64,000 nucleotides of DNA from Allobosea caraganae (GTDB lineage: Bacteria > Pseudomonadota > Alphaproteobacteria > Rhizobiales > Beijerinckiaceae). The notes beneath the pieces were generated by a model, which saw nothing but the letters and a program-made list of their open reading frames with translations, searched no databases and was not told the origin of the DNA. The DNA is taken from the NCBI RefSeq assembly GCF_003351345.1, contig NZ_QQTO01000005.1, positions 1-64,000 on the forward strand. The letters are read 5' to 3'. A program made the translations under genes and the position numbers. Positions 10,834 to 41,427 of the stretch are shown here, piece by piece; position 1 is the first letter of the stretch; each line of letters starts with the position of its first letter.

Positions 10834-11778
10834 ATGACCTATTTGCCCACCATCTCGCGCCGTGCGGTGCTCGGCCTCGTCGCCGGCGCTGCGCTCCTGC
10901 CCTCGCTTGCCTTTGCCCAGCAGTCGTTCGACCTCACCTCCGCGCAGAAGGACCAGCCGCGCGCCGAGGTCGTGCCCGAGGCGGTCAAGCTGCTCGGCAA
11001 GGACGTGAAGCTCGCCAAGCCCGGCACGTTCACCATCGCGACCACCGGCCAGCGTCTGCCCTTCGGCATCAACGCGGCCGACGACCACAAGACGATCGTG
11101 GGCTCGGAGCCCGACATCGCGCGGCTGATCGCCGACGGGCTCGGCCTCAAGCTGGAGGTGGTGCAAGTGGCCTGGGCCGACTGGCCGCTGGGCGTGGCCT
11201 CGGGCAAGTACGACGCGGCGATCTCCAACGTCACCGTCACCGAGCAGCGCAAGGAGAAGTTCGACTTCTCGACCTACCGCAAGGACCAGCTCGGCTTCTA
11301 CGTCTCGGCCAAGAGCGCGATCAAGGAGATCTCCAAGCCCGAGGACGTCGCCGGCCTCAAGGTGATCGTCGGCGCCGGCACCAATCAGGAGCAGATCCTG
11401 CTGCGCTGGATCAAGGCCAACGAGGCCAGAGGCCTGAAGGCCACCGAGGTTCAGTATTTCGACGATGACGTCGTGCTCTATATCGCGCTGGAATCGGGCC
11501 GCGCCGATGCGTATTTCGGACCCAACGGCACGCTCGGCTTCAAGGCCGCGCAGACCGGGAGCACGCGTCTCGTCGGCTCCTTCTCCGGCGGCTGGCCGGA
11601 GCTCGCCGAGATCGCGGTGACGACGAGGAAGGGGTCCGGCATCGCCGAGGCCATCACCGCCGTGCTCAACGCGCAGATCAAAAGCGGCAACTACCAGAAA
11701 TCACTGGCGCGCTGGGGCCTTGCGCCCGAGGCGATCGACGTCTCGCGCACCAATCCGCCGGGCCTGCCCAAGAGCTGA
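10834..11778 (+). CDS. Periplasmic binding protein, family 3 (polar amino-acid type), orphan
   Basis: A 314-residue protein. ATG 10834 (MTYLPTISRRAVLGLVAG) is chosen over 10783 because it opens with a Tat-like signal (SRRAVLG) and has AAAGG upstream. Cleavage is near AFAQ. The mature part is SBP_bac_3: GTFTIATTGQRLPFGINAADD, SEPDIARLIADGLGLKLEVVQVAW, ALESGRADAYFGP. Apart from the initiator it has no methionine and no cysteine. No permease or ATPase of the matching HisM/HisP class is in the window, so it must use a transporter elsewhere or act as an orphan. A sulfur amino acid such as cystine is a reasonable but unproven ligand. Confidence 0.85.
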   Translation: MTYLPTISRRAVLGLVAGAALLPSLAFAQQSFDLTSAQKDQPRAEVVPEAVKLLGKDVKLAKPGTFTIATTGQRLPFGINAADDHKTIVGSEPDIARLIADGLGLKLEVVQVAWADWPLGVASGKYDAAISNVTVTEQRKEKFDFSTYRKDQLGFYVSAKSAIKEISKPEDVAGLKVIVGAGTNQEQILLRWIKANEARGLKATEVQYFDDDVVLYIALESGRADAYFGPNGTLGFKAAQTGSTRLVGSFSGGWPELAEIAVTTRKGSGIAEAITAVLNAQIKSGNYQKSLARWGLAPEAIDVSRTNPPGLPKS

Positions 11779-11919
11779 GAGACCGTCTGATACTTCTAGT
11801 GGCGCGGCCGTCTGACGCGACTGTCTGCGCTTCCGGTGCTCACGTACAAGAGTACGCTCCGCTCCGGTTCTCGACAGCCACGCCAGCCAGCTCACGCCAG
11901 CGAAGTCTCAGGCGGTCTC
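11779..11919. repeat. Small intergenic element with 12-bp terminal inverted repeats
   Basis: GAGACCGTCTGA (11779-11790) is mirrored by TCAGGCGGTCTC (11908-11919) with one mismatch, beginning right at the stop of the binding-protein gene. The interior holds an imperfect hairpin around GTGCTCACGTAC ... GTACGCTCCGCTC. It resembles the short non-coding palindromic elements common in this order. No ORF. Confidence 0.4.
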
Positions 11920-11951
11920 TGGGATCGCCGCGACATAAGCAAAATCTCGGC

Positions 11952-11979
11952 GGCTCCGGCGCACTTTCGCGCCGGAACC
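11952..11979 (+). terminator. GC-rich hairpin before the oxidase gene
   Basis: GGCTCCGGCGC and GCGCCGGAACC pair over 11 bp with one mismatch and a 6-nt loop. There is no T-run, so it may be an attenuating hairpin or part of the intergenic repeat rather than a true intrinsic terminator. Confidence 0.3.
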
Positions 11980-12031
11980 GGACTGGTGCGTGAGCCGCAT
12001 CTATCGCAAGTCTACGGAGCTCGCAGCTATC

Positions 12032-13195
12032 ATGATCCGGCAAACGGCTGATGTCGTCGTCCTCGGCCTCGGCGCCATGGGTTCGGCCACCTTGTTCCAG
12101 CTCGCCTCGCGCGGAGCCGACGTCCTCGGCGTCGATCAGTTCCACCCCCCGCATGAGCTGGGTTCGAGCCATGGCGAGACGCGCGTGACGCGCCTCGCCG
12201 TGGCCGAGGGAACGGCGCTTGCGCCGCTGGTGCGCCGCTCGCACGAGATTTGGAAGGAGCTGGAGGCCCGCACGGGCGAAAGCCTGTTCGGGCAGGTCGG
12301 CTTCCTGGCGATCTCCAGCGAGCCGCCGCGATCCGGCGCGGCCGACTATATCGAGCGCACGCTCGCCGTTGCCCAACGCGGCGGCGTCGCGCATGAGCTG
12401 ATCGACCCGGCCGAGGCGCGCCGCCGCCATCCCTGGCTCAACGTCGCCGAGAGTGATCGCATCTATTTCGAGCCGGAGGGCGGTTATCTGCGCCCTGAGC
12501 GCTGCGTCGCGGCGCAGCTTCGGCTCGCCACCGAGGCAGGCGCGCGCCTCGCGCTCGACACGCGGGTGGGCGCCATCATCCCGCGCGGCGATCATGTGGA
12601 GATCGAGACCGACAAGGGAACCATCCTCGCGGGCCGGGTCGTGGTCAGCGCCGGAGCCTGGGCGGGTCAGCTGCTCGGCGCGGGCTTTTCCGCATTGCTG
12701 CGCCCCACGCGCGAGATTCTGCACTGGTATGACCTCGAGCCCTCCGCCCCGGCGGAATGGGCGCAGGCGCCGGTCTATATCTGGTCCTACGGCCCGGGCG
12801 CGGAGCAGGGCTTCTACGGCTTCCCCGCCAGCGACGGCGCGGTGAAGGTGGCTCATGGCGAGAAGACGCGCTTCGTCGATCCCGACAGCTTCGACCGATC
12901 GAGCGAGGAGGCCGAATCGCGCGATTTTTATGCTCGCGCCATCGATGGTCGGCTGAAAGGGCTGCGCGCCGATGCCTCGCGCCGCAAGACCTGCCTCTAC
13001 ACCGTGTCGCCGGATGGCGGCTTCGTCATCGACCACTGGCCGGAGAGCGAGCGCGTGCTCGTCGTATCGCCCTGCTCGGGCCACGGCTTCAAGCATTCGG
13101 CCGCGATCGGCGAGGCGGTCAGCCAGCGCCTCCTAGATGGCGCGAGCCGCATCGATCTGTCCGCCTTCGGGCTTGAGAGGTTCTCGGTGGCTTGA
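12032..13195 (+). CDS. FAD-dependent amine oxidase, sarcosine / N-methyl-L-tryptophan oxidase family
   Basis: A 387-residue flavoprotein of the DAO superfamily, expected to oxidise an N-methyl or secondary amino acid to imine plus H2O2. The Rossmann FAD motif is VVVLGLGAMGSATLFQLASRG (residues ~8-28), with SSHGETRVTR following. The MSOX/MTOX hallmark CLYTVSPDGGFVIDHWP carries Cys321, the usual covalent-FAD attachment residue, then CSGHGFKHSAAIGE near the C-terminus. Length matches the ~385-residue family. ATG 12032 (MIRQTADVVV) is preferred over 11990. It lies alone between the family-3 binding protein and the second importer; a link to amine/organosulfur catabolism is inferred from place only. 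Confidence 0.85.
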   Translation: MIRQTADVVVLGLGAMGSATLFQLASRGADVLGVDQFHPPHELGSSHGETRVTRLAVAEGTALAPLVRRSHEIWKELEARTGESLFGQVGFLAISSEPPRSGAADYIERTLAVAQRGGVAHELIDPAEARRRHPWLNVAESDRIYFEPEGGYLRPERCVAAQLRLATEAGARLALDTRVGAIIPRGDHVEIETDKGTILAGRVVVSAGAWAGQLLGAGFSALLRPTREILHWYDLEPSAPAEWAQAPVYIWSYGPGAEQGFYGFPASDGAVKVAHGEKTRFVDPDSFDRSSEEAESRDFYARAIDGRLKGLRADASRRKTCLYTVSPDGGFVIDHWPESERVLVVSPCSGHGFKHSAAIGEAVSQRLLDGASRIDLSAFGLERFSVA

Positions 13196-13205: not shown

Positions 13206-13242
13206 AAATAGTCCATCGATAAAGTATATTAATATTGACGGG
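13206..13242. promoter_or_regulatory. AT-rich promoter region of second importer operon
   Basis: AT-rich stretch with ATAGTCC, a TATATTAATAT run and TTGAC at ~13235, ~85-115 bp before the start at 13323. It may be a promoter or regulator site and shares ATAGTC with the box at 28398. Confidence 0.3.
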
Positions 13243-13322: not shown

Positions 13323-14954
13323 ATGGGCATGGGATCATGGAGCGCGAAGAGGGCCGGCCGGACTGTCGGCTTCCTGGCGGGCGCGGCATTCTGCCTTTTG
13401 TCGATGTTCAGCGTGGGAAGCCGCGCAGCCGACACGCCGGCTCCGGTGCGGGGAGGGACGCTCAACGTAGGCCTGGCGACCGACACGGCGATCATCGACC
13501 CTTCGATCACAGGCAGCTCGATCACCGCGCTGATCGCCCGCAACGTGGTGGATTCGCTGGTGGGCCAGGCCGAGGACAACCGCTTCACGCCCTGGCTGGC
13601 CGAGCGCTGGGAGGTCAATGGCGACAACAGCGTCTACACCTTCCATCTCCGCCAGGGAGTGACGTTCAGCGACGGGACGGCGCTGGACGCGGCCGCCGTG
13701 AAATACAATTTCGACCGTATCCTCGATCCGAAGACCACCTCGAGCTACGCGAAATCATTGCTTGGTCCCATCGAGGCGATCACGGCGCCGGACGCGCGCA
13801 CCCTCGTGATCAAGTACCGGCAACCTTTCGCACCATTGCTTCAGGGGCTGGGCCTGCCTTATCTCGGCATCCAGTCGCCGACCTATCTGCAGAATGCGGC
13901 CAGTACGACCAACACCGTGGTCGGCTCCGGCCCCTTCGTGCTGGACAGCTTCACCAAAGGCAGCGGCAGCCGGTTGAGCCGCCGGGCCGACTACAATTGG
14001 GGCCCAGGCTATGCCGCCCATACCGGCCCCGCGCATCTGGACGCCATCGTGTTCAGGTATCTGCCTGAATCCTCCGTCCGCCTGGGGGCGCTGAGCAGCG
14101 GGCAGTTGCAGGCGATCGATGAGGTCCCGCCGGCGAACTTCAGGGCGGTCCAGGCCAATGACCGGCTGCGGGTCGTCACGCGGGAGAATCCCGGCGTCAA
14201 CCGGGCCTTCTTCCTCAACACGACCAAGGGGCCTTTCCAGGACGTCAAAGTCCGTCAGGCCTTCCAAAGCGCAGCAGACATCGCCTCGGGTGTGAAGGCG
14301 GCCTATTTCGGCAGCCTCAAGCCGGCCGACAACATCCTGGGACCCTCGACCCTCTATTACGATGCCGGCATCGCCGCCAAATGGGGCCTGGACCTTGCCA
14401 AGGCGAACCGGCTGCTCGACGAGGCGGGATGGGCGAAAAAGGATGCCGACGGCATCCGCGCAAAGGACGGCCAACGTCTGAGCGTGCAATTCGTCTACGA
14501 CAGCGCCGCGCTGGGCGGCACGGACACCACGCTGGTCCAGGCGATCCAGTTTTCCGTGCGGAAGGCGGGCATCGAGCTGAAGCTCGATCCGGTGGACGCG
14601 GGCGGCTACACCGCTCGCACGGCGGCCAACGACTATGATCTCGCGTCCCTCTATTATGTCCGGGCCGAGCCCGACATCCTGCGGACGGTGTTCCACTCCG
14701 CCTACGTCCCGCCGAACGGCGCCAATGTGGCGCGGATCAAGAGCCTCGACGACAAGCTGAGCAAGGCGATCGGAGCTTCGGACGCGGAGCGCAAGCGCCT
14801 CTATGCCGAAATCCAGACCGAGATCGTCGAGCAGGTCTATGCGGTGCCGCTTTACGTCGCGGCGTATCAGCTCGGCGCTTCGAAGACGCTTCACGGCATC
14901 AGTTGGGCCACGAACGCGAAGCCCAATTTCTACGATGCCTGGCTCAGTCCGTAA
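13323..14954 (+). CDS. Periplasmic substrate-binding protein, family 5 (paralogue of 25665-27296)
   Basis: A 543-residue receptor. ATG 13323 has a strong AGGAGAC ribosome site. The signal peptide ends near SRAADTP (~residue 36). SBP_bac_5 core: YTFHLRQGVTFSDGTALDAAAVKYNFDRI, VVGSGPFVLDSF, GPAHLDAIVFRYLPESSVRLGALSSG. The mature chain has no Met and no Cys. It is clearly paralogous to the protein at 25665-27296 (shared NW.P...GHxGPAHLD and FLPES.VRxGALxSGQ). First gene of a plus-strand operon: receptor, two permeases, ATPase (broken), LLM oxygenase, C-S lyase. Confidence 0.9.
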   Translation: MGMGSWSAKRAGRTVGFLAGAAFCLLSMFSVGSRAADTPAPVRGGTLNVGLATDTAIIDPSITGSSITALIARNVVDSLVGQAEDNRFTPWLAERWEVNGDNSVYTFHLRQGVTFSDGTALDAAAVKYNFDRILDPKTTSSYAKSLLGPIEAITAPDARTLVIKYRQPFAPLLQGLGLPYLGIQSPTYLQNAASTTNTVVGSGPFVLDSFTKGSGSRLSRRADYNWGPGYAAHTGPAHLDAIVFRYLPESSVRLGALSSGQLQAIDEVPPANFRAVQANDRLRVVTRENPGVNRAFFLNTTKGPFQDVKVRQAFQSAADIASGVKAAYFGSLKPADNILGPSTLYYDAGIAAKWGLDLAKANRLLDEAGWAKKDADGIRAKDGQRLSVQFVYDSAALGGTDTTLVQAIQFSVRKAGIELKLDPVDAGGYTARTAANDYDLASLYYVRAEPDILRTVFHSAYVPPNGANVARIKSLDDKLSKAIGASDAERKRLYAEIQTEIVEQVYAVPLYVAAYQLGASKTLHGISWATNAKPNFYDAWLSP

Positions 14955-15885
14955 GCTGGCCCGCCTGGGCTTCCGACGCCTCGGCGTCGTGCTGGCCGTG
15001 CTCTGGGGCGCGGCCACGATCGCCTTCATCGCCGTCAAGCTGATCCCCGGCGATCCGGTTTCGGTGCTTACAGGCGGCGAGAACGTCGTGGATGAAGCCG
15101 AACGGGCCGTTCTCATCCAGCAATACGGCCTGGATCAGCCATTGATCGTGCAATACGCGCATTACCTTGGCAATGCGCTCATCGGCAATTTCGGGCAGAG
15201 CTACCAGTACCGCCAGCCGGTCGCCGAGGTGATCTTCGAAGCGGCGGTCCCGACCCTGCAGCTTGCCGGCTGCGCGATCGTCCTGGCGCTGTGTCTTGCC
15301 GTGAGCAGCGCGCTGGCCACCGCCGGTCGCCGCAAGGGGTTGCGGGTCGCACTCTCCGGCCTCGAACTCGTGCTGCTGAGCACGCCGGTCTACTGGATCG
15401 GCATCGTCCTGCTGACGTTGTTCAGCTTCCAGCTGCAATGGTTCCCCGTGACCGGCGGGGAGGGGGCTGCCGCGCTCGTCCTGCCCAGCGTGGCCTTGAG
15501 CCTGCCGCTGGCGGCGTTGCTCGGCCAGGTGCTGCGGGACGGGCTGGAGGAGGCGCTGTCGCAACCCTTCGCCCTCACGGTGCGGGCACGGGGCGTCGGA
15601 GAGACTGCGCTGCGGATCCGGCACGGCCTGCGCCATGCCGCGCTGGCGGCATCGACCTTGACCGGGACGCTTCTGGCCGGCGTGCTCAGCGGCTCGATCC
15701 TGACTGAGACGGTGTTCGGCCGCTCCGGCATCGGCCAGATCACGCTGCAGGCCATCAAGACGCGCGACATGCCGCTCGTGCTCGGGCTGGTGATGCTCTC
15801 GGCGCTGGTGTTCGTCATCGTCAATCTGCTGGTCGACGCCCTCTACGTGGTGATCGATCCCCGCTTGCGGCGAACCGCGCCATGA
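14935..15885 (+). CDS. ABC importer permease, DppB type
   Basis: A 316-residue membrane protein. ATG 14935 (MPGSVRKLARLGFRRLGVVLAV) overlaps the end of the binding-protein gene by 20 bp. It has the DppB N-terminal pattern (IAVKLIPGDPVSVLTGG), about six helices, and the loop TVRARGVGETALRIRHGLRHAALAAST. It closely resembles the permease at 24585-25601, including the ending VDALYVVIDPRLR. It functions with the DppC-type gene that follows with an ATGA overlap. Confidence 0.9.
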   Translation: MPGSVRKLARLGFRRLGVVLAVLWGAATIAFIAVKLIPGDPVSVLTGGENVVDEAERAVLIQQYGLDQPLIVQYAHYLGNALIGNFGQSYQYRQPVAEVIFEAAVPTLQLAGCAIVLALCLAVSSALATAGRRKGLRVALSGLELVLLSTPVYWIGIVLLTLFSFQLQWFPVTGGEGAAALVLPSVALSLPLAALLGQVLRDGLEEALSQPFALTVRARGVGETALRIRHGLRHAALAASTLTGTLLAGVLSGSILTETVFGRSGIGQITLQAIKTRDMPLVLGLVMLSALVFVIVNLLVDALYVVIDPRLRRTAP

Positions 15886-16754
15886 GCGGCGAGGAATTGC
15901 TGCAGGGGACGGCGCCGCACTCTGTTCGCGGCGGTCACCGCCACCCGTGGCGCGCGCCGGGCCTGCTGCTCCCCTTGGCTTTCGTGGTGCTTCTCGGCTT
16001 CGCGGTATGCGCCCCGCACTGGTTCACCGCGCTGGAGCCCGACGCTGTGGATACCGGCACGATCCTGCTGCCGCCGGGTCCAAGCCACTGGTTCGGCACG
16101 GACCAGCTCGGGCGGGACCTGTTCTCCCGCGTCGTTTACGGCACGTCGCAATCCTTGAGCATCGGCATCGGCGCGACGCTGGTGGCCTGCATCGGCGGCA
16201 TCCTGCTGGGCACCGCGGCTGCGCTGGCGCCGGCGGCGATCAGCCGGCCGCTGGTGCGGGTCATCGACATCCTGCTGGCCTTTCCCGAATTGCTGCTGGC
16301 CTTGCTGGTCATCGCCGTGCTCGGGCGCGGCCCGATGAACACCCTGCTCGCAGTCGGGCTGTCGAGCATTGCGGGCTATGCCAGGCTCGTGCGTTCGCAG
16401 GTCCTGCAGGTGAAGCTTTCGGGCTATGTCGAGCATGCGGTGACGCTCGGCGAGCATCCCTGGAGCGTCATCACCCGGCACATCGTGCCCAACACCACCC
16501 GCCCGCTGCTGATCCTGGCGACGATCGGGGTGGGCGGCTCGGTGCTTTCGGCTTCGTCATTGAGTTTCCTGGGGCTCGGGGTGGTGCCGCCTGCGGCGGA
16601 ATGGGGCGCGCTCCTCGCGGATGGCCGCAACTTCCTCGATATCGCGCCCTGGGTCAGCCTGCTGCCCGCCACGGTCGTGGCGGTCTCGGTGATCGCGATC
16701 ACCTTGCTGGGGCGCCGCCTGCAAACCCTGCTGGCCAGGGGAGACGTGCCGTGA
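15882..16754 (+). CDS. ABC importer permease, DppC type
   Basis: A 290-residue membrane protein overlapping its neighbour by 4 bp. N-terminal helix LLLPLAFVVLLGFAVCAPHW, then PSHWFGTDQLGRDLFSRVVYGTSQSLSIG, the DppC signature. The coupling loop is VTLGEHPWSVITRHIVPNTTRPLLI and the late motif LSFLGLGVVPPAAEWGALLADGRNF. Its paralogue is at 23716-24588. The downstream ATPase begins with GTG at 16751, overlapping by 4 bp. Confidence 0.9.
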   Translation: MSGEELLQGTAPHSVRGGHRHPWRAPGLLLPLAFVVLLGFAVCAPHWFTALEPDAVDTGTILLPPGPSHWFGTDQLGRDLFSRVVYGTSQSLSIGIGATLVACIGGILLGTAAALAPAAISRPLVRVIDILLAFPELLLALLVIAVLGRGPMNTLLAVGLSSIAGYARLVRSQVLQVKLSGYVEHAVTLGEHPWSVITRHIVPNTTRPLLILATIGVGGSVLSASSLSFLGLGVVPPAAEWGALLADGRNFLDIAPWVSLLPATVVAVSVIAITLLGRRLQTLLARGDVP

Positions 16755-18456
16755 ACGCTCCCGTGTTCCCCAGTCGCGAGGCGGCGTTGCCGGCTACGTC
16801 CGGCTTGTCGCCGCTGCTCCGCGTCGAGGGATTGCATGTCGCCTTCCCCACTGCGCAGGGCATGGTCGAGGCGGTTCGGGACATGTCCTTTCAGATAGCT
16901 GCCGGTGAGATCCTCGCGCTCGTCGGGGAGTCCGGCTCGGGGAAGTCGGTGACGGCCCGCGCCCTCGTCGGCCTGGCCGGGCCGTCGGCACGAGTACGGG
17001 CGCTGGACCTGTCGCTCTCCGGCCGCGACGAGCGGCGTCTCGATCTGCGCCGCCTTTCTCCGCAAGCCTGGGGGCAGGTCCGCGGCCGGGAAATCGGTTT
17101 GGTGCTGCAGGACGCGCTGGTGTCGCTGGACCCTCTCCGCACCGTGGGGCGAGAGGTTGCGGAACCCATCCTCGCTCACGACCTGCTGCCCAGAGCGCAG
17201 GTGGCCGAAGCGGTCGAGGCCCTTCTGCTGTGCGCCGGCATCCCCGACCCGCAGCTCCGGGCCGCCCAATATCCGCATGAACTCTCCGGCGGATTGCGGC
17301 GCAGCCCCGGTTTCTGATCGCGGACGAGCCCACGACGGCACTGGACGTCACCGTGCAGCAGCAGGTGCTGTCGGTGTTCCGGGATCTGGCGCGCGCCGGT
17401 CATGGCGTCCTCCTGATCACCCATGACCTTGCCGTCGCAGACCAGGTCGCCGACCGCGTCGCTGTCATGCAGGAGGGCCGTTTGGTCGAGGCCGGCCCGA
17501 CCCGCGAGATCCTGTCCAGGCCGCATCACCCCTATACCCGTCGCCTGCTGGCGGCGGTGCCGAGTGCTGCGACCCGCGGGCGGTGGCTGAGCGCGACCGG
17601 CGAAGCTCCCTCGCGTTCGGTGAAAGGTGGGCATAGCGCACCCCTCCTGGAACTGCGCGATGTCTGCGTCGCCTTCAGGCGCCCCGATGGCGGTGTGTTC
17701 GACGCGGTCAAGCAGGCCTCGCTTCACATCCATCGGGGCGAGACGCTCGGCATCGTCGGTGAATCCGGCTCGGGCAAGACCACGCTCGGGAAAGTCGCGC
17801 TGGCGCTGCGGCGGCCGGACAGTGGCGACGTCCGCCTGGACGGGGAACCGTGGAGCGCGCTCGCGGAATCCGCCCGGCGCCCCATCCGCCAACGCATCCA
17901 GACGATCGCGCAGGACCCTCTCAGCTCCTTCGATCCCCGGTTCAGCGTCGAACGCATCATCGAGCAGCCATTGCGCCTGCGCCCCGGCCTCGACCGGGCC
18001 GCGCGTCGACGCAGGATCCTGGAACTGGTCGGGCTGGTCGGCCTGCATCCTGATCTCCTGGCCCGACGGCCCGGGGCGTTGTCGGGCGGCCAGCGCCAGC
18101 GCGTGTCGATCGCCCAGGCCCTGGCCGCCGAGCCGGATCTGCTCGTCTGCGACGAGCCGGTCTCGGCCCTGGACGTCACCACCCAGGCGCAGGTGCTCGA
18201 CTTGCTGGTCGCATTGCAGGGACGGCTGCACCTGGCGATGCTGTTCATCTCTCACGATCTCGGCGTCATCCAGCACATGAGCCACCGCATCGCAGTGATG
18301 AAGGAGGGGAGGATCGTCGAGACGGGCCCGGTGGAACAGGTGTTCGACGCCCCCCGCGACCCCTATACCCGCCGCTTGCTGGCTGCGGTCCTCCGATTGC
18401 CGGACAGCGTCGACGGGGCGGTAAGCCAGGGCAGTCCGCCGGTAGCGCCATGCTAG
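16751..18456 (+). pseudogene. Fused double ABC ATPase broken by a ~31-nt deletion in domain 1
   Basis: The GTG start at 16751 is coupled to the permease stop. Domain 1 is normal through Walker A (GESGSGKS), the Q-loop (VLQDALVSLDPL) and the beginning of the signature (ELSGGLR, to ~17299), then runs into TGA 17315-17317. The correct frame resumes at once with RFLIADEPTTALDVTVQQQVL (Walker B). Compared with its paralogue at 22064-23719 (LSGGLRQRALIATAIARSPSLLIADEP), about 31 nt covering QRALIA... are missing, shifting the frame. From 17353 the rest is intact, including complete domain 2 ([28 protein letters not shown]). The intact second half could be made separately, but the importer probably lacks its own full ATPase. 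Confidence 0.85.
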
Positions 18457-24588: not shown

Positions 24589-25601
24589 CGGCCGGTCTCC
24601 CGGCTTTCGTCGCGCAAACGCGGATCGAGCAGGAGGTAGAGCACGTCCACCAGCGTGCTCAACGCCACATAGACGAAGGCGGAGAGGATCGCGACGGCGA
24701 GCACCACCGGCAGGTCATGTCCCAGCACGGCCTCGACCGTGACGCGTCCGAGGCCCGGCCGCCCGAACACGGATTCGGTGATGACGGCGCCCGACAGCAG
24801 GTTGCCGACGAGCCAGCCGGTCAGCGTGACCGCCGGCAGGGCGGCATGGCGCAGGCAATGCCGCAGCCTCAGAACGAGGTCGCTCGTGCCCCAGCTGCGC
24901 ACGGTGAGGGCGAAGGGCTCCTCGAGCGCGCGCTCCAAGCCCTCGCGCAGCACCTGCCCGACGACCGCGCCGAGGGAAAGCCCGAGCGCGAGGGCGGGCA
25001 GGACCAGCGCCGAAAAGCTCCTGTCGCCGGAGACCGGGAAGAGCTTCAGCGTGAAGGAGAAGACGAAGAGCAGCAGGATGCCGAGCCAGAAGGACGGCGT
25101 CGAGACCAGCGTCAGCTCCAGCGCGCCCGCGATGGCGCGGGGCACGCGCCGGCCGGCCGTCGACACGGCGCTGGCGACCGCAAACACGAGCGCGACGACC
25201 AGTGCCGCAGCGGTGAGCTTCAGCGTCGGCAGCATCTGCGACAGCACGAGGCCGGTCACATCGGTCTGGAGGATGTAGGAGCGCCCGAAATCGCCGTGCA
25301 GGATGCGGGAGAGGTAGCTCAGATATTGCAGCGGCAGCGGCGCATCGAGGCCCCATTCGGCGCGAATGGTGGCCTCGACCTCCGGCGTTCGCAGCTGTTC
25401 GCCGATCAGGAGGCTGACGATGTCGCCCGGAGCCAGCTGCAGGCTGACGAAGCTCAGGGTCACCGCCGCCCAGAGCACGAGGAGGCCGGAGCCGATCCTG
25501 GCCGCGATCTGCAAGGCCAGGCCGCCGCGCTTCAACCCCAGGCGCTCGGGCAGCCAGGCGGCGGGCGATCGCCTGATGGCGGTCGTGTTCTGAGGGTCCA
25601 T
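24585..25601 (-). CDS. ABC importer permease, DppB type
   Basis: A 338-residue membrane protein. A ~25-residue cytosolic extension (MDPQNTTAIRRSPAAWLPERLG) precedes the usual first helix and the modified DppB motif LAPGDIVSLLIGEQ. Coupling loop: TVRSWGTSDLVLRLRHCLRHAALPAVT. The C-terminus VDVLYLLLDPRLRDE is nearly shared with 14935-15885. The start is 63 bp downstream of the binding-protein stop. Confidence 0.9.
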   Translation of the reverse strand: MDPQNTTAIRRSPAAWLPERLGLKRGGLALQIAARIGSGLLVLWAAVTLSFVSLQLAPGDIVSLLIGEQLRTPEVEATIRAEWGLDAPLPLQYLSYLSRILHGDFGRSYILQTDVTGLVLSQMLPTLKLTAAALVVALVFAVASAVSTAGRRVPRAIAGALELTLVSTPSFWLGILLLFVFSFTLKLFPVSGDRSFSALVLPALALGLSLGAVVGQVLREGLERALEEPFALTVRSWGTSDLVLRLRHCLRHAALPAVTLTGWLVGNLLSGAVITESVFGRPGLGRVTVEAVLGHDLPVVLAVAILSAFVYVALSTLVDVLYLLLDPRLRDESRETGR

Positions 25602-25664
25602 CGTCGCTCGTTTCCTGCAATCATTCGCCGGCCACGACCGAACCCGCGGCGGCGCGGCTCAGGA

Positions 25665-27296
25665 TCAAGGTTTCAGCCAGATGTCGTAGGCGCTCTCGGG
25701 CAGGCGCTTGAACGGGCGGAAGCCGACGCCCTTGATCCGCGTGGAGGCAGCGATCTGGTCGTCGGGCACATAGAGCGGCAAGCCGTAAGCCTGCTCCAGC
25801 AAGGCGAAGCGCTGCAGCTTCGCGTAGATCTCGAAGCGCTTCTTCGCATCGAGCGTCGAGGCCGCCTCATCGAGCCAGGCGGAGACTTCCGGCGCCTCGG
25901 TGCGGCTGTAGTTGATCGAGCCGCCCTTGCTGCGCGGCAAGTAGTGGAAATAGATCGTCAGCCCGTTTTCCTGCGTGGTGGTCGAGTTCGGGATGATGCC
26001 GTACTGGCCGTCATTCTGCCGATTGGCGTAGGTTCCGGCATCGACATATTGCAGGGCGAGCTCGATGCCGGCGTTCTGGCGCGCCTGCGCTTGCACCGCC
26101 TGCAGCAGGATGTCGCGCTGGTCGCGCACCGTGGCCTGGGATTGCACGACCTCGATGGTCAGGCGCTTGCCGTCCTTGGTGCGGAAGCCGCCGGCGTCGC
26201 GCGCGGTCCAGCCGGCCTCGTCGAGCAGGGCGTTGGCCAGCTTCGGATCGAAGCCGTAGCTGCGCTCGATGCTTTTGTCGTAGAAATCCGTGTCGGCCGG
26301 AGTGAGGATGCCCCAGGCGCGCTGCCGCTCGCCGCGATAGACGGATTGGATGATGCGCTCGACATCGATCGCCGCCAGGATGGCCTTGCGCACCTTCACA
26401 TCGGCCGTCGGGCCGCGGGTGACGTTGAAATAGAGCGTGTAGGGCGTGCCGGTGTTGAGCGCGTTCTGATAGGCGAAGTCCGGGCTGTCCTTGAAGAGCC
26501 CGGCGTCGTTTCCGGAAATGCCCTCGATGACGTCGACTTGTCCCGAGGTGAGCGCGCCGGTGCGCACGGCGGATTCCGGCAGGAAGCGATAGGTCAGGCG
26601 ATCGAGATGGGCCGGTCCCTGATGCCCGGCATTGGCCGGAGCCCAGTTATAGGCTGGATTCCTGACGAAGCGGATCTCCTGGCCTTTGACATAGCGTTCG
26701 AGAATGAAGGGGCCGGTGCCGGACAGCTCCGGCCCGCCCGCCTTGAGCTGCGGCGAGGCGAAGGATTTCGGCGAGAGGATCTCGAGGCCGGAGATCCCGT
26801 CCAGGAAGGGGGCGTAGACCCGGTCGAGCTTCAGGACGAGCGTATGGGGATCGGCTGCGACGGCCTCCGAGATATACGAGACATGGCCTGCGCTGATGCT
26901 GCCCGAATAGGTCGGCTCCTTCAGCTTGGTGAAGTTCAGCGCCACGGCAGCCGCATCGAGCTTGGCGCCGTCGCTGAAGGTCACGTCGTCGCGCAGCCTG
27001 AAGGTGTAGGTCCGGCCGTCCTCGGAGACCGCGTAGCCCTTTGCCAGCCAGGGCGCGTAGCCGCCATCCGGCGTGCGCGCCAGCAGGGATTCATAGGCGT
27101 TGCGCAGGATGAGCTTGGCCTTCGCCTGGCCGTTCAGGTGCGGATTGAGCGTGTTCGGCTCGGTCTCGACGCCCCAGGTCAGGGAACCGCCCTTGACGGG
27201 CGCGTCCGCCGCCTCGGCTGTGCCGGGCCGCGCTCCGGCAATGATGGGCAGCGTCACGGCGCCCAGCCCGCCCAGGAAGGTTCGTCTCGTTACCAC
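25665..27296 (-). CDS. Periplasmic substrate-binding protein, family 5, lacking Cys and internal Met
   Basis: A 543-residue receptor with a Tat-type signal (TRRTFLGGLG, cleavage near AEAADAP). SBP_bac_5 core: PNTLNPHLNG, YTFRLRDDVTFSDGAKLDAAAVALNF, LSGTGPFILERY, GPAHLDRLTYRFLPESAVRTGALTSGQ. Reading the whole chain, I find no cysteine and no methionine except the initiator. That is striking for 543 residues and typical of sulfur-starvation receptors. Paralogue of 13323-14954. Preceded by an LLM gene (36 bp away) in the same operon. Confidence 0.92.
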   Translation of the reverse strand: MVTRRTFLGGLGAVTLPIIAGARPGTAEAADAPVKGGSLTWGVETEPNTLNPHLNGQAKAKLILRNAYESLLARTPDGGYAPWLAKGYAVSEDGRTYTFRLRDDVTFSDGAKLDAAAVALNFTKLKEPTYSGSISAGHVSYISEAVAADPHTLVLKLDRVYAPFLDGISGLEILSPKSFASPQLKAGGPELSGTGPFILERYVKGQEIRFVRNPAYNWAPANAGHQGPAHLDRLTYRFLPESAVRTGALTSGQVDVIEGISGNDAGLFKDSPDFAYQNALNTGTPYTLYFNVTRGPTADVKVRKAILAAIDVERIIQSVYRGERQRAWGILTPADTDFYDKSIERSYGFDPKLANALLDEAGWTARDAGGFRTKDGKRLTIEVVQSQATVRDQRDILLQAVQAQARQNAGIELALQYVDAGTYANRQNDGQYGIIPNSTTTQENGLTIYFHYLPRSKGGSINYSRTEAPEVSAWLDEAASTLDAKKRFEIYAKLQRFALLEQAYGLPLYVPDDQIAASTRIKGVGFRPFKRLPESAYDIWLKP

Positions 27297-27332
27297 GTTG
27301 CAGTCCCCGATCGGCTTTGAACTGGAATTCTC

Positions 27333-28352
27333 TCAGGCCGCGAGAGAGACATGCGCTGCGGCCAGAAGCTCTATGGTCTTCAGCCGCTGGCTGCCCTCCG
27401 TCTCCGGGCAGTCGACGATGAATTCGTCGATGCCGAACGTCCGGTGCAGCCGGTCCAGCTCGGCGTGAACGCGCGCGGGCGTTCCGCGGATGACGAGCGC
27501 GGTGCGCTCCTCGATCCGGTAGCGGCTCGCGCCGACCTGCCGGACATATTCCAGCGCCTGCTCCCGGCTGCCGACATTCACGCTCTGGGCATTCTCGACC
27601 TCCACCCGGAAGCGGCGGCTATCGCCGGCCAGGCGGTTGGCCTCGGCTTCGGTCTCGGCCGTGACGATGCTCACCGCCAGCAGGGCCGAGCGGCCGCCCG
27701 CGTCGCGGTAGGTCGAGATCGCCTCCGCAATGGCCGTGGCGTCGCCGTGGATATGGCCGGGATAGACGAAGTTCCAGCCCAGCCGCGCCGCGAGCCGCGC
27801 GCTGTCCGGGCTTGCTCCCAGCAGGAAGCGCTCGGCCGCCGTCACTGGTGCGGGATAGGCGGCGAGATGCCCGCCGGCATCGTCCCAGTCCTGCCCGCCC
27901 TCGCGGCTTGCCTCATGGCGCAGGAAGCCGTCCAGCTCGGTCAATTGCGTCTCGAATGAGGGCTTTCTGGCCGGATCGTAGGCGCCCTGGAGAGCGTTGG
28001 TCGAAAGCGGCATGCCGCCCGGGGCCTTGCCGATGCCGAGGTCGACGCGGCCGGGCGCGAGGGCGGCGAGCAGGTTGAAGTTCTCGGCCACCTTGTAGGC
28101 GCTGTAGTGCTGGAGCATCACTCCGCCGGAGCCGATCCTGATGCGGTTGGTGCGTGCGAGCAGGAAGCTGATCAGCACCTCCGGCGAGGAGCTCGCCAGC
28201 TTCGGCGCATTGTGATGCTCCGCCACCCAAAAACGGGAGAAGCCGAGTTCCTCCGCCCTTCTGGCCAGGGCGAGCGTGCGTTGCAGCGCCTCCGTGGCGC
28301 TGTCGCCGTCGTGGAGGGGGCTCTTGTCGAGAAAACTCAGGGCGTAAGGCAT
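27333..28352 (-). CDS. LLM flavin oxidoreductase, MsnO8-type
   Basis: A 339-residue luciferase-like protein and first gene of the minus operon 28352 to 20688. MsnO8 pattern: ALSFLDKSPLHDG at the N-terminus, ELGFSRFWVAEHHNAPKLASSSPEVLISFLLA, IRIGSGGVMLQHYSAYKVAENFNLLAALAPGRVDLGIGKAPGG, and FGIDEFIVDCPETEG at the end. Proteins of this type often occur in sulfur-assimilation operons, but their exact reaction is unsettled. One Cys, three Met. Divergent from the acetyltransferase gene across an AT-rich promoter region. Confidence 0.86.
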   Translation of the reverse strand: MPYALSFLDKSPLHDGDSATEALQRTLALARRAEELGFSRFWVAEHHNAPKLASSSPEVLISFLLARTNRIRIGSGGVMLQHYSAYKVAENFNLLAALAPGRVDLGIGKAPGGMPLSTNALQGAYDPARKPSFETQLTELDGFLRHEASREGGQDWDDAGGHLAAYPAPVTAAERFLLGASPDSARLAARLGWNFVYPGHIHGDATAIAEAISTYRDAGGRSALLAVSIVTAETEAEANRLAGDSRRFRVEVENAQSVNVGSREQALEYVRQVGASRYRIEERTALVIRGTPARVHAELDRLHRTFGIDEFIVDCPETEGSQRLKTIELLAAAHVSLAA

Positions 28353-28397
28353 CCAGTCTCCTCGACCGGCGAGATGTGGCTTTTAATCCATATATTT

Positions 28398-28408
28398 TAT
28401 AGTCTATA
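28398..28408. promoter_or_regulatory. Palindromic AT-rich box between divergent units
   Basis: TATAGTCTATA is a perfect palindrome about a central T within the AT-rich patch 28380-28412. It is placed midway between the divergent starts at 28352 and 28455, where it could control both. Confidence 0.4.
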
Positions 28409-28454
28409 TGATCAAGCGACGATCTCCCGAGGTCGTGGCGAAGTTCATGGAGGC

Positions 28455-29090
28455 ATGTCAGTGACCGATCTCATTATCCGGTCGTCCCTTCTGGATGCGG
28501 CGGCGCAGCCGCTCCTGGAGGGACTCGTCAGCGAATATGATGGGCGCTATGGCGCTGCGAGCCGGCCCGGCGGGGCGCGCTCGGAAATCCTGCGCTATCC
28601 GAGCGAGGCGTTTTCGCCGCCGCTGGGGGATTTCCTCCTGCTCCAGCGCGATGGCGAGACCATCGCCGGCGGCGCCTTCATGAGCCACGACGCCGAGACG
28701 GCCGAGCTCAAGCGCATCTGGACCCGGCCGGACCTGCGCCGCCAAGGCCTGGCCAAGCGCATCGTGCTGGAACTCGAGGAGAGCGCGGCAGAGCTCGGCT
28801 ACACGCGCGCCTATCTGACCACCGGCTTTCGTCAGCCGGAGGCCTCCGCGCTCTATCTTCTGCTCGGATACCGTCCGCTTTTCGACACCGCGGTGGATCT
28901 CACGCTCTACCGCTCTCTGCCATTCGAGAAGCATATCGGTGCAAAGGCGGGGCAGCCGGGCACGTCGACGGTCTACCCGCCCACCGGCTCCTTCGAAGAG
29001 GCCACTGCCCGCGTGGCCGCGCTCAAGGCGCAGCAGGAGGCGAAGATCCTCGCCCGCCTCGCCAGCTTCGGCATTACGGCGGCGGCCTAG
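28455..29090 (+). CDS. GNAT-family N-acetyltransferase
   Basis: A 211-residue acetyl-CoA-dependent acyltransferase. The acetyl-CoA loop RIWTRPDLRRQGLAKRIVLELEESAAELG (the R/QxxGxG/A motif appears as RRQGLA) is near residues 92-120, followed by YLTTGFRQPEASALYLLLGYRPLF. ATG 28455 is preceded by GGAGG. The last ~45 residues are an Ala/Lys/Glu-rich helical tail that is not part of the fold. No cysteine, two methionines. First of three plus-strand genes followed by two LLM enzymes; it may acetylate a substrate or product amine, as in other sulfur-scavenging loci. Confidence 0.85.
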   Translation: MSVTDLIIRSSLLDAAAQPLLEGLVSEYDGRYGAASRPGGARSEILRYPSEAFSPPLGDFLLLQRDGETIAGGAFMSHDAETAELKRIWTRPDLRRQGLAKRIVLELEESAAELGYTRAYLTTGFRQPEASALYLLLGYRPLFDTAVDLTLYRSLPFEKHIGAKAGQPGTSTVYPPTGSFEEATARVAALKAQQEAKILARLASFGITAAA

Positions 29091-29233
29091 CCCTGGACGA
29101 TCAGCCGAGGGGAATCGTTGCGCCGCAACCGCGGCTCCGCGCGCGATCCCCGCGGAAACATGTGCGGCGGCGTACGGCCAGCCGCCGCTATCCCTGAATT
29201 CAAAGCTGACAGGTAGAACATGACCCAAACGGC

Positions 29234-30220
29234 TTGCTGCTCGGCGTCGCGCTCGATGCCGCCGCGCATGCGGATAGCGACAGATCCAGCTGGGGCGGCT
29301 TCTGGAGCGGGCTGATCGGCCGCCTCGACGGCGCGGTTGATTTCGTGACGCTGGAGGATGGCTTTGCCCGAGCCGGCGCGGATGGGCCCGATGCCGTGCT
29401 TCTCGCCAACTGGCTCGCGCCGCGAAGCCGAGACATCGGCATCATCGCAGGCGCGCCGGTGAATCTCCTCGAGCCCTTTCACGTCTCGACGGCGATCGCC
29501 ACGCTGGACTACGTCAGCGAGGGTCGGGCGGGCCTGCTGGCGCAGCGGCTGCGCGAGGCGCGGGCGGCCGAGGGCAGGCGGGCACTCGGTGCTCTCAACG
29601 GCTTTCCGGCTGATGATCGGCAAGCGCAAGACCGGGATGCGCAGGCCGCGATCGAGGTCATCAGCCGCTTATGGGATAGCTGGGAGGATGACGCGGTGAT
29701 CCGCGACCCGAAAAGCCAGCGTTTCCTCGACGGTTCGAAGCTGCACTACATCGATTTCGAGGGAGCGGATTTCCGGGTGCTCGGTCCATCGATCACGCCG
29801 CGACCGCCCCAGGGCCAGCCTCCGGTCGCCATCGCCTGGGCGGAAGGGGATGATCCGTCCTTGATCCGCGAGGCGGATATCGTCTTCCTGCCTGCCGGCC
29901 AAGGCGAAATCGGAGATGTGATCCGCGACTCGCGCCGTGGCGCTGAGGGAGCCGGGCCGATCTTCATCGCGGACCTCGACCTCGGCCCGGAAGGTCCGTC
30001 GATCGCTGGACTGGTGGTGGCAGCCAAGCAGGCAACGGAACTCGGCGCCGGCGGCATCCGCATCGTTCTGTCCGATCCTTCAGTGCAACTCGGCCAGCTT
30101 CTCAGCGAGGTCCTGCCAGGCTTGCGTGATGCCGGCTTTGTCCGCCGGCCTTCGGGCGGGACATTGCGCCAGCGCTTCAACTTGCCGGTCGCGGCCAATC
30201 GCTACACGGCTGCGGCCTGA
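29234..30220 (+). CDS. LLM-class flavin oxidoreductase with disrupted start
   Basis: At least 328 residues. Core: DFVTLEDGFARAGADGPDAVLLANWLAP, then EPFHVSTAIATLDYVSEGRAGLLAQ, and RLWDSWEDDAVIRD...GSKLHYIDFEGADFRVLGPS, as in the NtaA/SnaA family. The natural start appears to be ATG 29220 (after ACAGGTAG), reading MT- then PNGLLLGVALD. One C seems missing in ACCCAAAC, so ATG 29220 is out of frame; TTG 29234 is the nearest in-frame start. No Cys and no Met beyond the assumed initiator. Either expression is impaired or the base is an assembly error. Cotranscribed with 30239. Confidence 0.7.
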   Translation: MLLGVALDAAAHADSDRSSWGGFWSGLIGRLDGAVDFVTLEDGFARAGADGPDAVLLANWLAPRSRDIGIIAGAPVNLLEPFHVSTAIATLDYVSEGRAGLLAQRLREARAAEGRRALGALNGFPADDRQAQDRDAQAAIEVISRLWDSWEDDAVIRDPKSQRFLDGSKLHYIDFEGADFRVLGPSITPRPPQGQPPVAIAWAEGDDPSLIREADIVFLPAGQGEIGDVIRDSRRGAEGAGPIFIADLDLGPEGPSIAGLVVAAKQATELGAGGIRIVLSDPSVQLGQLLSEVLPGLRDAGFVRRPSGGTLRQRFNLPVAANRYTAAA

Positions 30221-30238
30221 GCCAGGGAAGATCGATCC

Positions 30239-31555
30239 ATGTCCAAGAAGCAGATCATCCTCGGCGCGCAGTTCCCGGGCGTCAACAATTTCACCGTCTG
30301 GCGCGATCCCGCTGCGGGCAGCCAGATCGATTTCGCCTCCTTCCGCCACTTCTCGGAAACGGTGGAGCGCGGCAAGTTCGACTTCATCTTCCTGGCTGAA
30401 GGGCTGCGGGTCCGCGAGCAGAAGGGCCGCTTCCACGAACTCGACGTGGCCGGGCGTCCCAACACCCTGGCGATCCTGACGGCGCTGTCGTCCATCACCA
30501 GCCATGTCGGCTTGATCGGCACGCTGACGACGACCTTCAACGAACCGTATCCTCTGGCCCGGCAACTGGCGACGCTGGACATTCTGTCCGGCGGCCGGGC
30601 GGGCTGGAACGTCGTCACCTCGCCGGGAGCCTTCACCGGCGCGAATTTCCGGCGCGGCGATCACCTGCCGTTTGGGGAACGCTACGAGCGGGCGCGGGAG
30701 TTCATCGAGGCGGCCCGGACAATCTGGGCAGGCGGCGATTTCTCCAGTCACTCCAGGCATTTCGACATTGCCGGGCGCTCCGGCCTCGCGCCATTGCCTC
30801 AGGGGGCCCCGATCATCGCCCAGGCGGGCGACTCGGAAGAGGGCAGGGAGTTGGCGGCTGGTCATGCCGACCTGATCTATTCCCGTCATGGGACGCTGGA
30901 GGCCGGCCAGGCCTTCTATGCCGACGTCAAGAACCGGCTGGCGAAATACGGCCGCAGCAGGGACGCGCTCAAGATACTGCCGGGCGCGGCCTTCATCCTG
31001 GGGGATACGCAGGAGGAGGCGCAGGAAAAGCTGAAAGCCATCCGCCTTCAGCAGGTCAGCCCGAAGAACGCCATCGTATTCCTGGAGCAGGTCTGGAACC
31101 GCGACCTCTCCGATCACGATCCGGACGGTCCCTTGCCGGTGGCGGAGCCCGACATATCCGCGCAGCTGGCCCAGGGCCGCGCGAACCGCTTCGATAATCG
31201 CCTGGAAACGGCGCGGGCCTGGCGGGAGCTGGCCGAGCGCGAGGGGCTCAGCATTCGCGAGCTGATCATCCGGGTCACCGCCCGACAGCAATTCGTCGGC
31301 ACGCCGGAAAGCATCGCCAGCGAAATCGACCGCCATGTGCAGGAGGACGCGGCCGACGGCTTCGTCTTCGCGCCGCATCTCACCCCGGGCGGCTTCGACG
31401 AGTTCGTCGAGAAGGTCATCCCGATCCTTCAGGAGCGCAAGGTGTTCCGCCGTGACTATAGCGGCGACACCCTGCGCGGGAATCTCGGGCTGCCTCCCGC
31501 CTTGCTGCCCGATCGGGAGCGGCACGACGAACTGGTAGGGCGTATCGCGTCGTAG
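30239..31555 (+). CDS. NtaA/SnaA/DszA-family FMNH2-dependent monooxygenase, Cys/Met-free
   Basis: A 438-residue LLM monooxygenase. N-terminal FRHFSETVERGKFDFIFLAEGL; family core TTTFNEPYPLARQLATLD...GRAGWNVVTSPGAFTGANF (residues 98-135); PLPQGAPIIAQAGDSEEGRELAAGHADLIYS; and C-terminal FVEKVIPILQERKVFRRDYSGDTLRGNLGL, very like DszA and nitrilotriacetate monooxygenases. Reading the chain, methionine occurs only as the initiator and cysteine not at all. Expected to oxygenate an organosulfur or aminocarboxylate substrate using FMNH2 from a separate reductase. It lies 18 bp after the previous LLM gene. Confidence 0.9.
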   Translation: MSKKQIILGAQFPGVNNFTVWRDPAAGSQIDFASFRHFSETVERGKFDFIFLAEGLRVREQKGRFHELDVAGRPNTLAILTALSSITSHVGLIGTLTTTFNEPYPLARQLATLDILSGGRAGWNVVTSPGAFTGANFRRGDHLPFGERYERAREFIEAARTIWAGGDFSSHSRHFDIAGRSGLAPLPQGAPIIAQAGDSEEGRELAAGHADLIYSRHGTLEAGQAFYADVKNRLAKYGRSRDALKILPGAAFILGDTQEEAQEKLKAIRLQQVSPKNAIVFLEQVWNRDLSDHDPDGPLPVAEPDISAQLAQGRANRFDNRLETARAWRELAEREGLSIRELIIRVTARQQFVGTPESIASEIDRHVQEDAADGFVFAPHLTPGGFDEFVEKVIPILQERKVFRRDYSGDTLRGNLGLPPALLPDRERHDELVGRIAS

Positions 31556-41425: not shown

Positions 41426-41427
41426 CG

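Follow-up and report, generated by a model that had tools for sequence, protein, structure and literature searches.

A 41-kb island of sulfur-poor proteins in Allobosea caraganae as the probable organosulfur-scavenging part of a sulfur-starvation regulon

The window analyzed here, a stretch of 64,000 nucleotides from Allobosea caraganae (contig NZ_QQTO01000005.1; C5:1-64000 of a 6.17-Mb genome in 42 contigs), encodes between about 10 and 31 kb a block of ATP-binding cassette (ABC) transporters and flavin monooxygenases whose proteins contain almost no cysteine (Cys) or methionine (Met), and the question that this locus raises is why they should lack them. An earlier note on this DNA took the block to be a sulfur-starvation regulon. 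From the sequence we consider it very likely that the locus is the organosulfur-scavenging part of such a regulon and that its proteins are sulfur-sparing. The proposal is supported by paralogues, gene families, and operators, but the unit is wider than the one proposed and extends from about 4.9 to 46.0 kb; this island of about 41 kb looks built for scavenging sulfur from organic compounds. Genes were called with a codon-usage script.

Recounting of individual chains agrees with the earlier note. The receptor at 25665-27296 (minus strand, GTG start, 543 residues), the monooxygenase at 30239-31555 (plus strand, ATG start, 438 residues), and the receptor at 10834-11778 (plus strand, ATG start, 314 residues) contain no Cys and no Met other than the initiator, and the luciferase-like protein at 29234-30220 (plus strand, 328 residues) has neither residue when read from its TTG start. 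In the receptor at 13323-14954 the only such residues are Cys24, Met1, Met3, and Met28, all inside an apparent signal sequence recognized by eye, and the monooxygenase at 20688-22007 has three Met (residues 1, 260, and 297) and no Cys. The product of 58702-59736, a gene named asd by the earlier note only, has six Cys and six internal Met. The block as first delimited is depleted, but its edges were drawn too narrowly; the receptor at 8583-10127 (0.39% Cys+Met) belongs to it too.

The extent of the depletion was computed directly against two backgrounds: 389 proteins of at least 250 residues from stretches not picked for luciferase-like monooxygenases, and 1034 proteins from 2.36 of the 6.17 Mb, some stretches of which were picked near SBP_bac_5 receptor genes. 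The 15 block proteins of at least 250 residues average 0.87% Cys+Met versus 2.73% in the first background (Mann-Whitney p = 2.3e-8), and 11 of them lie under its 5th percentile (1.04%); the 11 proteins between 31.7 and 46 kb average 1.74%. The block's 18 genes of at least 150 residues encode 55 Cys+Met where about 179 are expected, and proteins without any Cys or Met number 2 among the 1034 of the second background. The ranking of all proteins of the genome that the earlier note had suggested was run on a sample of about 38%, in which the block stays extreme. When 1283 five-gene runs are ranked, window 25665-31555 comes out lowest (0.22%), followed by C11:840-860 kb (0.40%), L204 (0.73%), C39 (0.84%), L217 (0.90%), and C37 (0.96%); the C11, C39, and C37 stretches had been fetched for their luciferase-like monooxygenases, so that their low rank was not found without bias. 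A low Cys+Met content is by itself no specific mark, because L204 and L217 are low but, judged on N-termini, were not called sulfur islands; L204 (C11:280001-290490) encodes proteins that are flagellin-like by their N-termini and is another strongly Cys/Met-poor run, and L217 is mixed. In the block, depletion is graded by protein class, strongest in receptors, then in monooxygenases, and then in permeases and ATPases, and does not reach every gene. The claim that it is block-wide stands for most proteins but not for that encoded at 19484-20641 (3.12%), and only in part for the ATPases and permeases.

The cleanest comparison is with paralogues. The genome encodes 56 SBP_bac_5 receptors, and the three in the window rank first, second, and third lowest (0.00, 0.39, and 0.55%), an ordering with a chance probability of 3.6e-5. 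The other 53 average 2.61% with a minimum of 1.01%, and equally low paralogues, the outcome that the earlier note had named as speaking against its reading, are not found among them. The 22 luciferase-like monooxygenases comprise eight in non-window islands (0.22-0.85%), seven elsewhere (1.58-3.81%), and seven in the window (0.00-3.12%). When six low-sulfur islands (the window in C5, C11, C37, C39, C42, and C33:224-227 kb) are set against the rest, Cys+Met is 0.27 versus 2.84% for receptors (n = 13 and 43), 0.73 versus 2.56% for monooxygenases (n = 15 and 5), 1.64 versus 3.12% for permeases (n = 9 and 75), and 1.78 versus 3.36% for ATPases (n = 14 and 65); because seven of the 13 island receptors are manual assignments (two of those seven with a family match) and some islands were picked partly by composition, the comparison of 56 SBP_bac_5 receptors is the clean test. 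The C42 island is a canonical ssu operon in which SsuD (572 bits, cut-off 518) has 0.52% and SsuA 0.00%, and the ATPase (1.45%), permease (2.82%), and flavin reductase (3.19%) are less depleted. The island at C11:840-866 kb encodes a YeeE-type Sulf_transp protein, a rhodanese, SsuD-like and TIGR04027 monooxygenases, GNAT, M20, and NtaA proteins, and three receptor-type proteins with two, zero, and zero Cys+Met.

Depletion is also specific to the two sulfur residues. In the 17 block proteins of at least 200 residues, Met falls to 0.27 times background (p = 5e-10) and Cys to 0.39 times (p = 5e-4); Lys (0.73 times) and Asn (0.77 times) fall mildly, Leu (1.13 times), Arg (1.19 times), and Ser (1.22 times) rise, and Trp, Tyr, His, and Phe are unchanged (0.99-1.09 times). 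A like pattern is seen in 17 proteins of the C11 island (Met 0.32 times, Cys 0.30 times). That only Met and Cys fall sharply argues against two explanations that do not invoke sulfur cost. In one, Met and Cys were lost for oxidation resistance, through periplasmic location or peroxide released by flavin monooxygenases. The receptors are periplasmic by family and many of the enzymes are flavin monooxygenases, but the other oxidizable residues are not reduced (Trp 1.00, Tyr 1.09, and His 1.01 times), the same-family receptors outside the window keep their sulfur residues, and so do the seven luciferase-like monooxygenases outside the islands, which leaves oxidation resistance very improbable. 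The other explanation, a general saving of biosynthetic cost in proteins expressed at very high levels, unrelated to sulfur, would accommodate the peak of depletion in the receptors, presumably the most abundant products; it is extremely improbable given that the costly residues Trp, Phe, Tyr, and His do not change and that depletion does not go so far in the 53 other receptors of that Pfam family.

Homologues in other organisms bear on a third alternative, in which Met and Cys were absent from these families at the outset and have hardly had the time or occasion to come back. The 25665-27296 receptor has 66 relatives in Alphaproteobacteria, Enterobacterales, Actinobacteria, and a few other groups, the closest in the searched collection being from Bosea sp. 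WAO (85%), Bosea lathyri (84%), and Rhizobium (82%). Nearly all are low, as inheritance would have it, and the nearest would be expected to be low anyway (simulated mean 2.4-3.1 Cys+Met). In 16 of the 66, among them Actinoplanes and Streptosporangium proteins of 46-50% identity, no Cys or Met follows the first matched residue. Neutral evolution was simulated 100 times on a tree of 63 relatives (the partial relatives L047, L085, and L088 were left out), starting from the Met-free window protein and drawing on the residue frequencies of the 53 non-window receptors. Observed Met is 0.19% versus 1.28% simulated, and the lowest of the 100 runs gave 0.89%, so that total Met lies below all simulations; Trp, His, Tyr, and Asn match the simulation. 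The distant Actinoplanes, Streptosporangium, and Sphaerisporangium members considered individually have 0 Cys+Met versus about 9-10 simulated, and several families within the same units are depleted together, which makes simple inheritance quite unlikely. Met has been kept out of the receptor family. Pooled Cys+Met is 0.22% in 78 receptor matches and 0.06% in 26 homologues of the 29234-30220 protein.

Selection for sulfur sparing is therefore the reading pursued below, where the gene content and promoters of the island are considered. Its features are as follows.

4918-8570, minus strand: glutathione-type (gsi-like) ABC transporter (Pfam BPD_transp_1, OppC_N, ABC_tran), comprising permeases 4918-5772 (2.12% Cys+Met) and 5769-6692 (0.98%) and fused ATPase 6744-8570 (2.64%).
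8583-10127, minus strand: GsiB-like substrate-binding protein, two internal Met and no Cys, second lowest of the 56 SBP_bac_5 receptors; 544.9 bits against NCBIfam GsiB, under the cut-off of 594 and hence outside that family.
10144-10161, strand not assigned: operator 2, CGTTCTTAAAAAAGAACA, directly upstream of 8583-10127, with two mismatches to TGTTCTTTNNAAAGAACA.
10532-10555, minus strand: operator 1, TAGTTTATAAAATTAGTCAACTAT, from the matrix and consensus scans.
10834-11778, plus strand: SBP_bac_3 receptor (Pfam PF00497, matched on the longer frame 10783-11778).
12032-13195, plus strand: oxidase dependent on flavin adenine dinucleotide, of the N-methyl-L-tryptophan oxidase type, 1.04% (NCBIfam NF008425, 405 bits, cut-off 257, scored on the longer frame 11990-13195).
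13208-13231, minus strand: operator 1, TAATATACTTTATCGATGGACTAT, upstream of 13323.
13323-14954, plus strand: SBP_bac_5 receptor, third lowest of 56, without Cys or Met beyond residue 28.
14935-18456, plus strand: ABC permeases and ATPases serving the 13323 transporter (Pfam).
18500-19462, plus strand: luciferase-like monooxygenase, 1.25%, nearest TIGR04027 (109 bits, under the cut-off of 413).
19484-20641, plus strand: PatB-family C-S lyase, not depleted (NCBIfam TIGR04350, 404 bits, cut-off 340).
20688-22007, minus strand: NtaA/DmoA-family monooxygenase, 0.46% (TIGR03860, 337 bits, cut-off 279.7).
22064-25601, minus strand: fused ABC ATPase and two permeases, 0.91, 0.69, and 0.59% (Pfam).
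25665-27296, minus strand: SBP_bac_5 receptor, lowest of the 56 paralogues, no Cys or internal Met in the translation.
27333-28352, minus strand: MsnO8-family monooxygenase, 0.89% (TIGR03558, 331 bits, cut-off 167).
28384-28407, plus strand: operator 1 of the divergent promoter, TAATCCATATATTTTATAGTCTAT, from alignment with 10 Rhizobiales homologues.
28461-29090, plus strand: GNAT acetyltransferase, 0.48% (Pfam PF00583).
29234-30220, plus strand: small luciferase-like protein without Cys or Met, matching PDB 3SDO (5e-22) and 7E36 chain A (3e-21); 103 bits over 149 residues against TIGR03860, under the cut-off of 279.7 and hence a relative, not a member.
30239-31555, plus strand: NtaA/DmoA-family monooxygenase with only the initiator Met (TIGR03860, 355.8 bits, cut-off 279.7).
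31723-32880, minus strand: SfnG-like monooxygenase, not depleted (186 bits, scored on a longer frame, against TIGR04021, SfnG dimethylsulfone monooxygenase, under the cut-off of 383).
32904-34130, minus strand: DszC/SfnB-like flavoprotein, 0.74% (best NCBIfam match DszC, 291 bits, under the cut-off of 850).
34127-38082, minus strand: ABC transporter with ATPase (1.04%), receptor 35291-36325 (0.29%), and fused permease (3.08%).
38549-38572, minus strand: operator 1, TAATCTATAAATGAAATAGACAAT, in a divergent promoter.
39421-43395, plus strand: ABC transporter with receptor 39421-40482 (0.28%) and permeases and ATPase (2.2-2.9%).
43392-46010, plus strand: an SfnB-like flavoprotein, 43392-44609 (TIGR04022, 410 bits, just under 430.9), and an NtaA/DmoA monooxygenase, 44649-46010 (TIGR03860, 530 bits, cut-off 279.7).

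Three organosulfur-type families in the block score above their curated cut-offs, MsnO8 (TIGR03558), NtaA/DmoA (TIGR03860), and PatB (TIGR04350), and the SfnG, SfnB, DszC, and GsiB types all score below theirs; for all of these a role in sulfur acquisition is predicted from family assignment. The PatB-type lyase and the SfnG-like protein, at an ordinary 3.12% each, are possibly recent arrivals or differently controlled. The arrangement of 20688-31555 is luciferase-like monooxygenase 20688, ATPase, permeases, receptor 25665, and MsnO8 27333, followed divergently by GNAT 28461, 29234, and 30239; its full set of gene types is present in 10 of the 66 loci (Rhizobium, Bosea, and Agrobacterium, with Brucella compared only), and partial arrangements occur in other loci, for example in Inquilinus, Phyllobacterium, Rahnella, and Actinoplanes, some of these loci being cut short. 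Two tandem SBP_bac_5 receptors, mostly both near Cys/Met-free, are found in 22 of the 66 loci (e.g. L024), and the window has one.

Two operators are shared among the promoters. The promoter between 27333 and 28461 can be aligned in 10 Rhizobiales loci and yielded a 24-column matrix from seven foreign promoters (the window copy, the gapped L026 and L029, and L041 were left out). Applied to 914 intergenic regions of the A. caraganae genome, 23 of them in islands, the matrix places island promoters at seven of the top 10 positions (p = 2.7e-10), four in the window, one of which is the orthologous promoter itself, and three in L105 (C11); a purely symmetric matrix is weaker, with five of the top 10. 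The consensus of operator 1, which was shaped partly by the matrix hits, is TARTCTAT-N8-TAGACTAT. Its nine matches in the genome with two or fewer mismatches fall at seven distinct places, five in islands and four of those in the window; the matches at C33:170714, where the surrounding genes have normal composition, and at C37:324373 are taken as chance. Operator 2, the palindrome TGTTCTTTNNAAAGAACA, was first seen in the C37 and C39 islands. With two or fewer mismatches it occurs at three places in 6.17 Mb, all in low-sulfur islands, versus none for the reversed control, and the third place is the window site upstream of the GsiB-like receptor. The 66 relative loci, which comprise the 25665 operon, a place where operator 2 would not be expected, gave no match; among 13 genomes of the genus, two carry it with one or no mismatch, one of them being that of A. 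caraganae. Between them, these operators connect four of the six islands (C5, C11, C37, and C39). In whole genomes, matches to the operator 1 pattern outnumber those to its reversed control in Rhizobium leguminosarum (17 versus 6), Rhizobium BK602 (21 versus 8), and Bosea WAO (4 versus 2); the counts in Actinoplanes are 2 versus 1.

Composition follows operator control within loci. In the 553-625 kb region of the R. leguminosarum plasmid pRLN1, whose promoter is absent from the matrix used there, five operators head units, and their 21 genes average 0.66% Cys+Met versus 2.04% in 36 others (p = 5.6e-5). The genes between two of these operators, at 571.3-577.6 kb, are ordinary (1.8-5.3%), and about 80 bp beyond the next operator begins a 541-residue receptor-like protein without Cys or Met. 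Operator-led genes average 0.80% (n = 24) versus 2.73% (n = 14) in two Bosea loci (p = 1.4e-5) and 0.76% (n = 48) versus 1.83% (n = 19) in four further Rhizobiaceae loci (p = 0.04). In the sample of the A. caraganae genome, scanned with a matrix that includes its own sites, 41 operator-led genes average 1.57% versus 2.83% in 1706 others (p = 2e-9), and the sites in islands are six of six at 28 bits or more and one of seven weaker ones.

A candidate regulator for operator 1 is encoded in the C11 island (C11:862553-863008; L105:2553-3008). This protein contains an Rrf2 domain (PF02082, 138 bits), and its nearest solved relative is CymR of Firmicutes (2Y75, E = 3e-21), level with the uncharacterized BadM/Rrf2 protein 4CIC. 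The predicted targets are sulfur genes, as for CymR; the C11 protein differs in its alphaproteobacterial host and in four invariant Cys (C-x8-C-x2-C-x5-C), present in 10 of 10 aligned homologues, which suggest a metal cluster, probably Fe-S, through which sensing may occur. CymR partners with the cysteine synthase CysK. Orthologues of the C11 protein (81-82%) share a locus with the 25665 operon in both Bosea loci. An orthologue of at least 63% is present in five of nine genomes searched, and all five show operator 1 at the operon (28.5-38.9 bits); the fifth co-occurrence promoter, that of Rhizobium BK602, lies outside the matrix and has two sites. In Phyllobacterium, with a 46% Rrf2 homologue, no operator 1 site above shuffles was found at the operon, and at the operons of Inquilinus, Rahnella, and Actinoplanes the site is at best weak (16.7 bits), at most 20 bits, and absent, respectively. 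Operator-like sites lie upstream of the Rrf2 orthologues themselves in Rhizobium BK602 (24 bits) and an Agrobacterium (20 bits). A CymR/Rrf2 protein has been named as a candidate regulator of sulfur metabolism in the actinobacterium Rhodococcus qingshengii IGTS8 (PMC8557817).

Very low receptors also occur in other genomes apart from the query orthologues. In Actinoplanes, Rahnella, and Brucella pseudogrignonensis (receptor rows left out were L307, the partial L302 and L303, and one Rahnella and three B. pseudogrignonensis matches without loci), 10 measured receptors have at most 0.5% Cys+Met, and 4 of these 10 have a luciferase-like monooxygenase within 10 kb versus 0 of the 57 others (p = 2.7e-4). 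Two of the four adjoin acyl-CoA-dehydrogenase-type proteins, the superfamily of SfnB and DszC.

Taken together in a sulfur-sparing model, these observations would be explained as follows. When sulfate or cysteine is exhausted, repression would be lifted at the operators TARTCTAT-N8-TAGACTAT and TGTTCTTTNNAAAGAACA, several ABC importers with abundant periplasmic receptors would then take up sulfur compounds, and flavin monooxygenases would then cleave the C-S bond. Selection would have purged Met and Cys from the island proteins, most fully from the receptors, because they must be synthesized in bulk while sulfur is limiting. The depletion, its restriction to Met and Cys, its absence from paralogues elsewhere, the lasting exclusion of Met, the gene families, and the shared operator sequences are computed results; we infer induction by sulfur limitation, the abundance of the proteins, repression as the mode of control, the regulator with its Fe-S sensing, and the substrates.

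Several results weigh against this model. In the receptor family, Cys is no lower than in the neutral simulation (0.190 versus 0.196%), so that evidence for exclusion is confined to Met, and Gln and Ser lie above the simulated range and Lys just under it; the distant relative from Asaia, the highest of the 66, has 1.95% Cys+Met. The operator 1 consensus matches the genome nine times versus four for the reversed control, and its pattern does not exceed the control in Bosea lathyri (2 versus 6) or Rahnella (15 versus 40). None of the top 10 operator 1 matches is in L104, C33, C37, C39, or the ssu locus C42, and neither operator is in the ssu (C42) or C33 islands. Operator-led units include proteins that are not depleted (31723-32880, 3.12%; 36322-38082, 3.08%; and 40496-41425, 2.92%), the PatB lyase inside the block has 3.12%, and pRLN1 has low-sulfur genes (e.g. 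594.9-598.7 and 613.5-618.9 kb) outside operator-led units under the rule used. The link between Rrf2 and operator 1 is a correlation, and four of the five co-occurrence promoters were in the matrix. Finally, no luciferase-like monooxygenase lies within 10 kb of 6 of the 10 low receptors from the three other genomes; one of these six adjoins an alkyl sulfatase and the other five are unexplained.

The structural relatives of the enzymes give some indication of their substrates. The nearest solved chains to 30239-31555 are 7E36 chain B (E = 1e-78) and YtnJ (PDB 1YW1, E = 3e-76), and the two PDB matches of 29234-30220 are about equal. The entry 7E36 is the heterodimeric monooxygenase NtfO1-NtfO2 (PMC8027225). 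Chain A would be NtfO1 and chain B NtfO2. The window pair resembles it in that 30239-31555 is similar to chain B and 29234-30220 to chain A, and in both the A-type chain is the less conserved. The two window proteins possibly form a two-subunit C-S monooxygenase; NtfO1-NtfO2 and its equivalents are described there as hydroxylating a polyketide, whereas the window pair lies in a predicted organosulfur operon. The 29234-type protein is small, fast-evolving, and Cys/Met-free; of the 26 loci that encode it, 23 have an NtaA-type monooxygenase alongside. In the CmoO/CmoJ pathway of Bacillus subtilis, S-alkyl-cysteine is acetylated, oxidized, and cleaved by a YxeK/DszA homologue (PMC10863075). The window shares with this pathway a YtnJ-like enzyme (30239-31555) adjoined by a GNAT acetyltransferase and an MsnO8-type monooxygenase, but a deacetylase was not seen among the genes of the window operon (an M20-type amidohydrolase is encoded in the C11 island), the importer is of the peptide/nickel type, and there is an extra luciferase-like protein, 29234-30220. 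We take YtnJ to be CmoJ, YtmO to be CmoO, and YtmI to be the acetyltransferase. Because the window operon has CmoO/CmoJ-type genes except the deacetylase, its GNAT, MsnO8, and NtaA/YtnJ-like set suggests S-alkyl-cysteine or related thioethers as a plausible substrate.

Sulfur sparing itself is known, and what is added here is its extent, its deep conservation, and a predicted regulon. Proteomics of R. qingshengii IGTS8 gives DszA with no Cys and five Met and MetY with none and one (PMC8557817), the sulfate-binding proteins of Salmonella and Escherichia coli are said to be sulfur-free (review, PMC9695796), and older work (Baudouin-Cornu 2001; Mazel & Marliere 1989) is cited in PMC5513900. The island proteins resemble these in having Cys+Met far under the proteome and their paralogues, with 19484-20641 and 31723-32880 as exceptions; the present case differs in concerning organosulfur islands and in having a control of 53 paralogues, a neutral simulation over several lineages, and shared operators. 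In the parts of the cited literature drawn on here, sulfur sparing is given as counts for selected proteins, and in this system it becomes testable against paralogues, neutral evolution, and operator units, which makes directly testable the old idea that the element a protein fetches shapes its own composition. Among the open PMC articles that searches listed, none was seen to describe such a regulon or operator in Hyphomicrobiales. We tentatively suggest that the CymR-like, Cys-rich (probably Fe-S) Rrf2 protein and TARTCTAT-N8-TAGACTAT may together delimit an organosulfur-starvation regulon, so far undescribed, in Hyphomicrobiales, with protein sulfur content tracking operator control gene by gene, and that receptors with near-zero Met and Cys may mark sulfur-regulon operons across phyla. 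As a practical tool, such receptors may flag uncharacterized sulfur-acquisition operons. In soil and plant-associated habitats much of the sulfur is organic, and the operators offer a candidate regulon in bacteria of these habitats.

Two minor observations concern the sequences themselves. Locus L046, labeled Mycobacterium sp. KBS0706, has the alphaproteobacterial form of the operon with a 66% receptor, as in Inquilinus, and the label may be wrong. At the edge of the window, an open frame at 1-3526 (minus strand) runs past the first nucleotide and encodes at least 1175 residues with no Cys and 1.45% Met.

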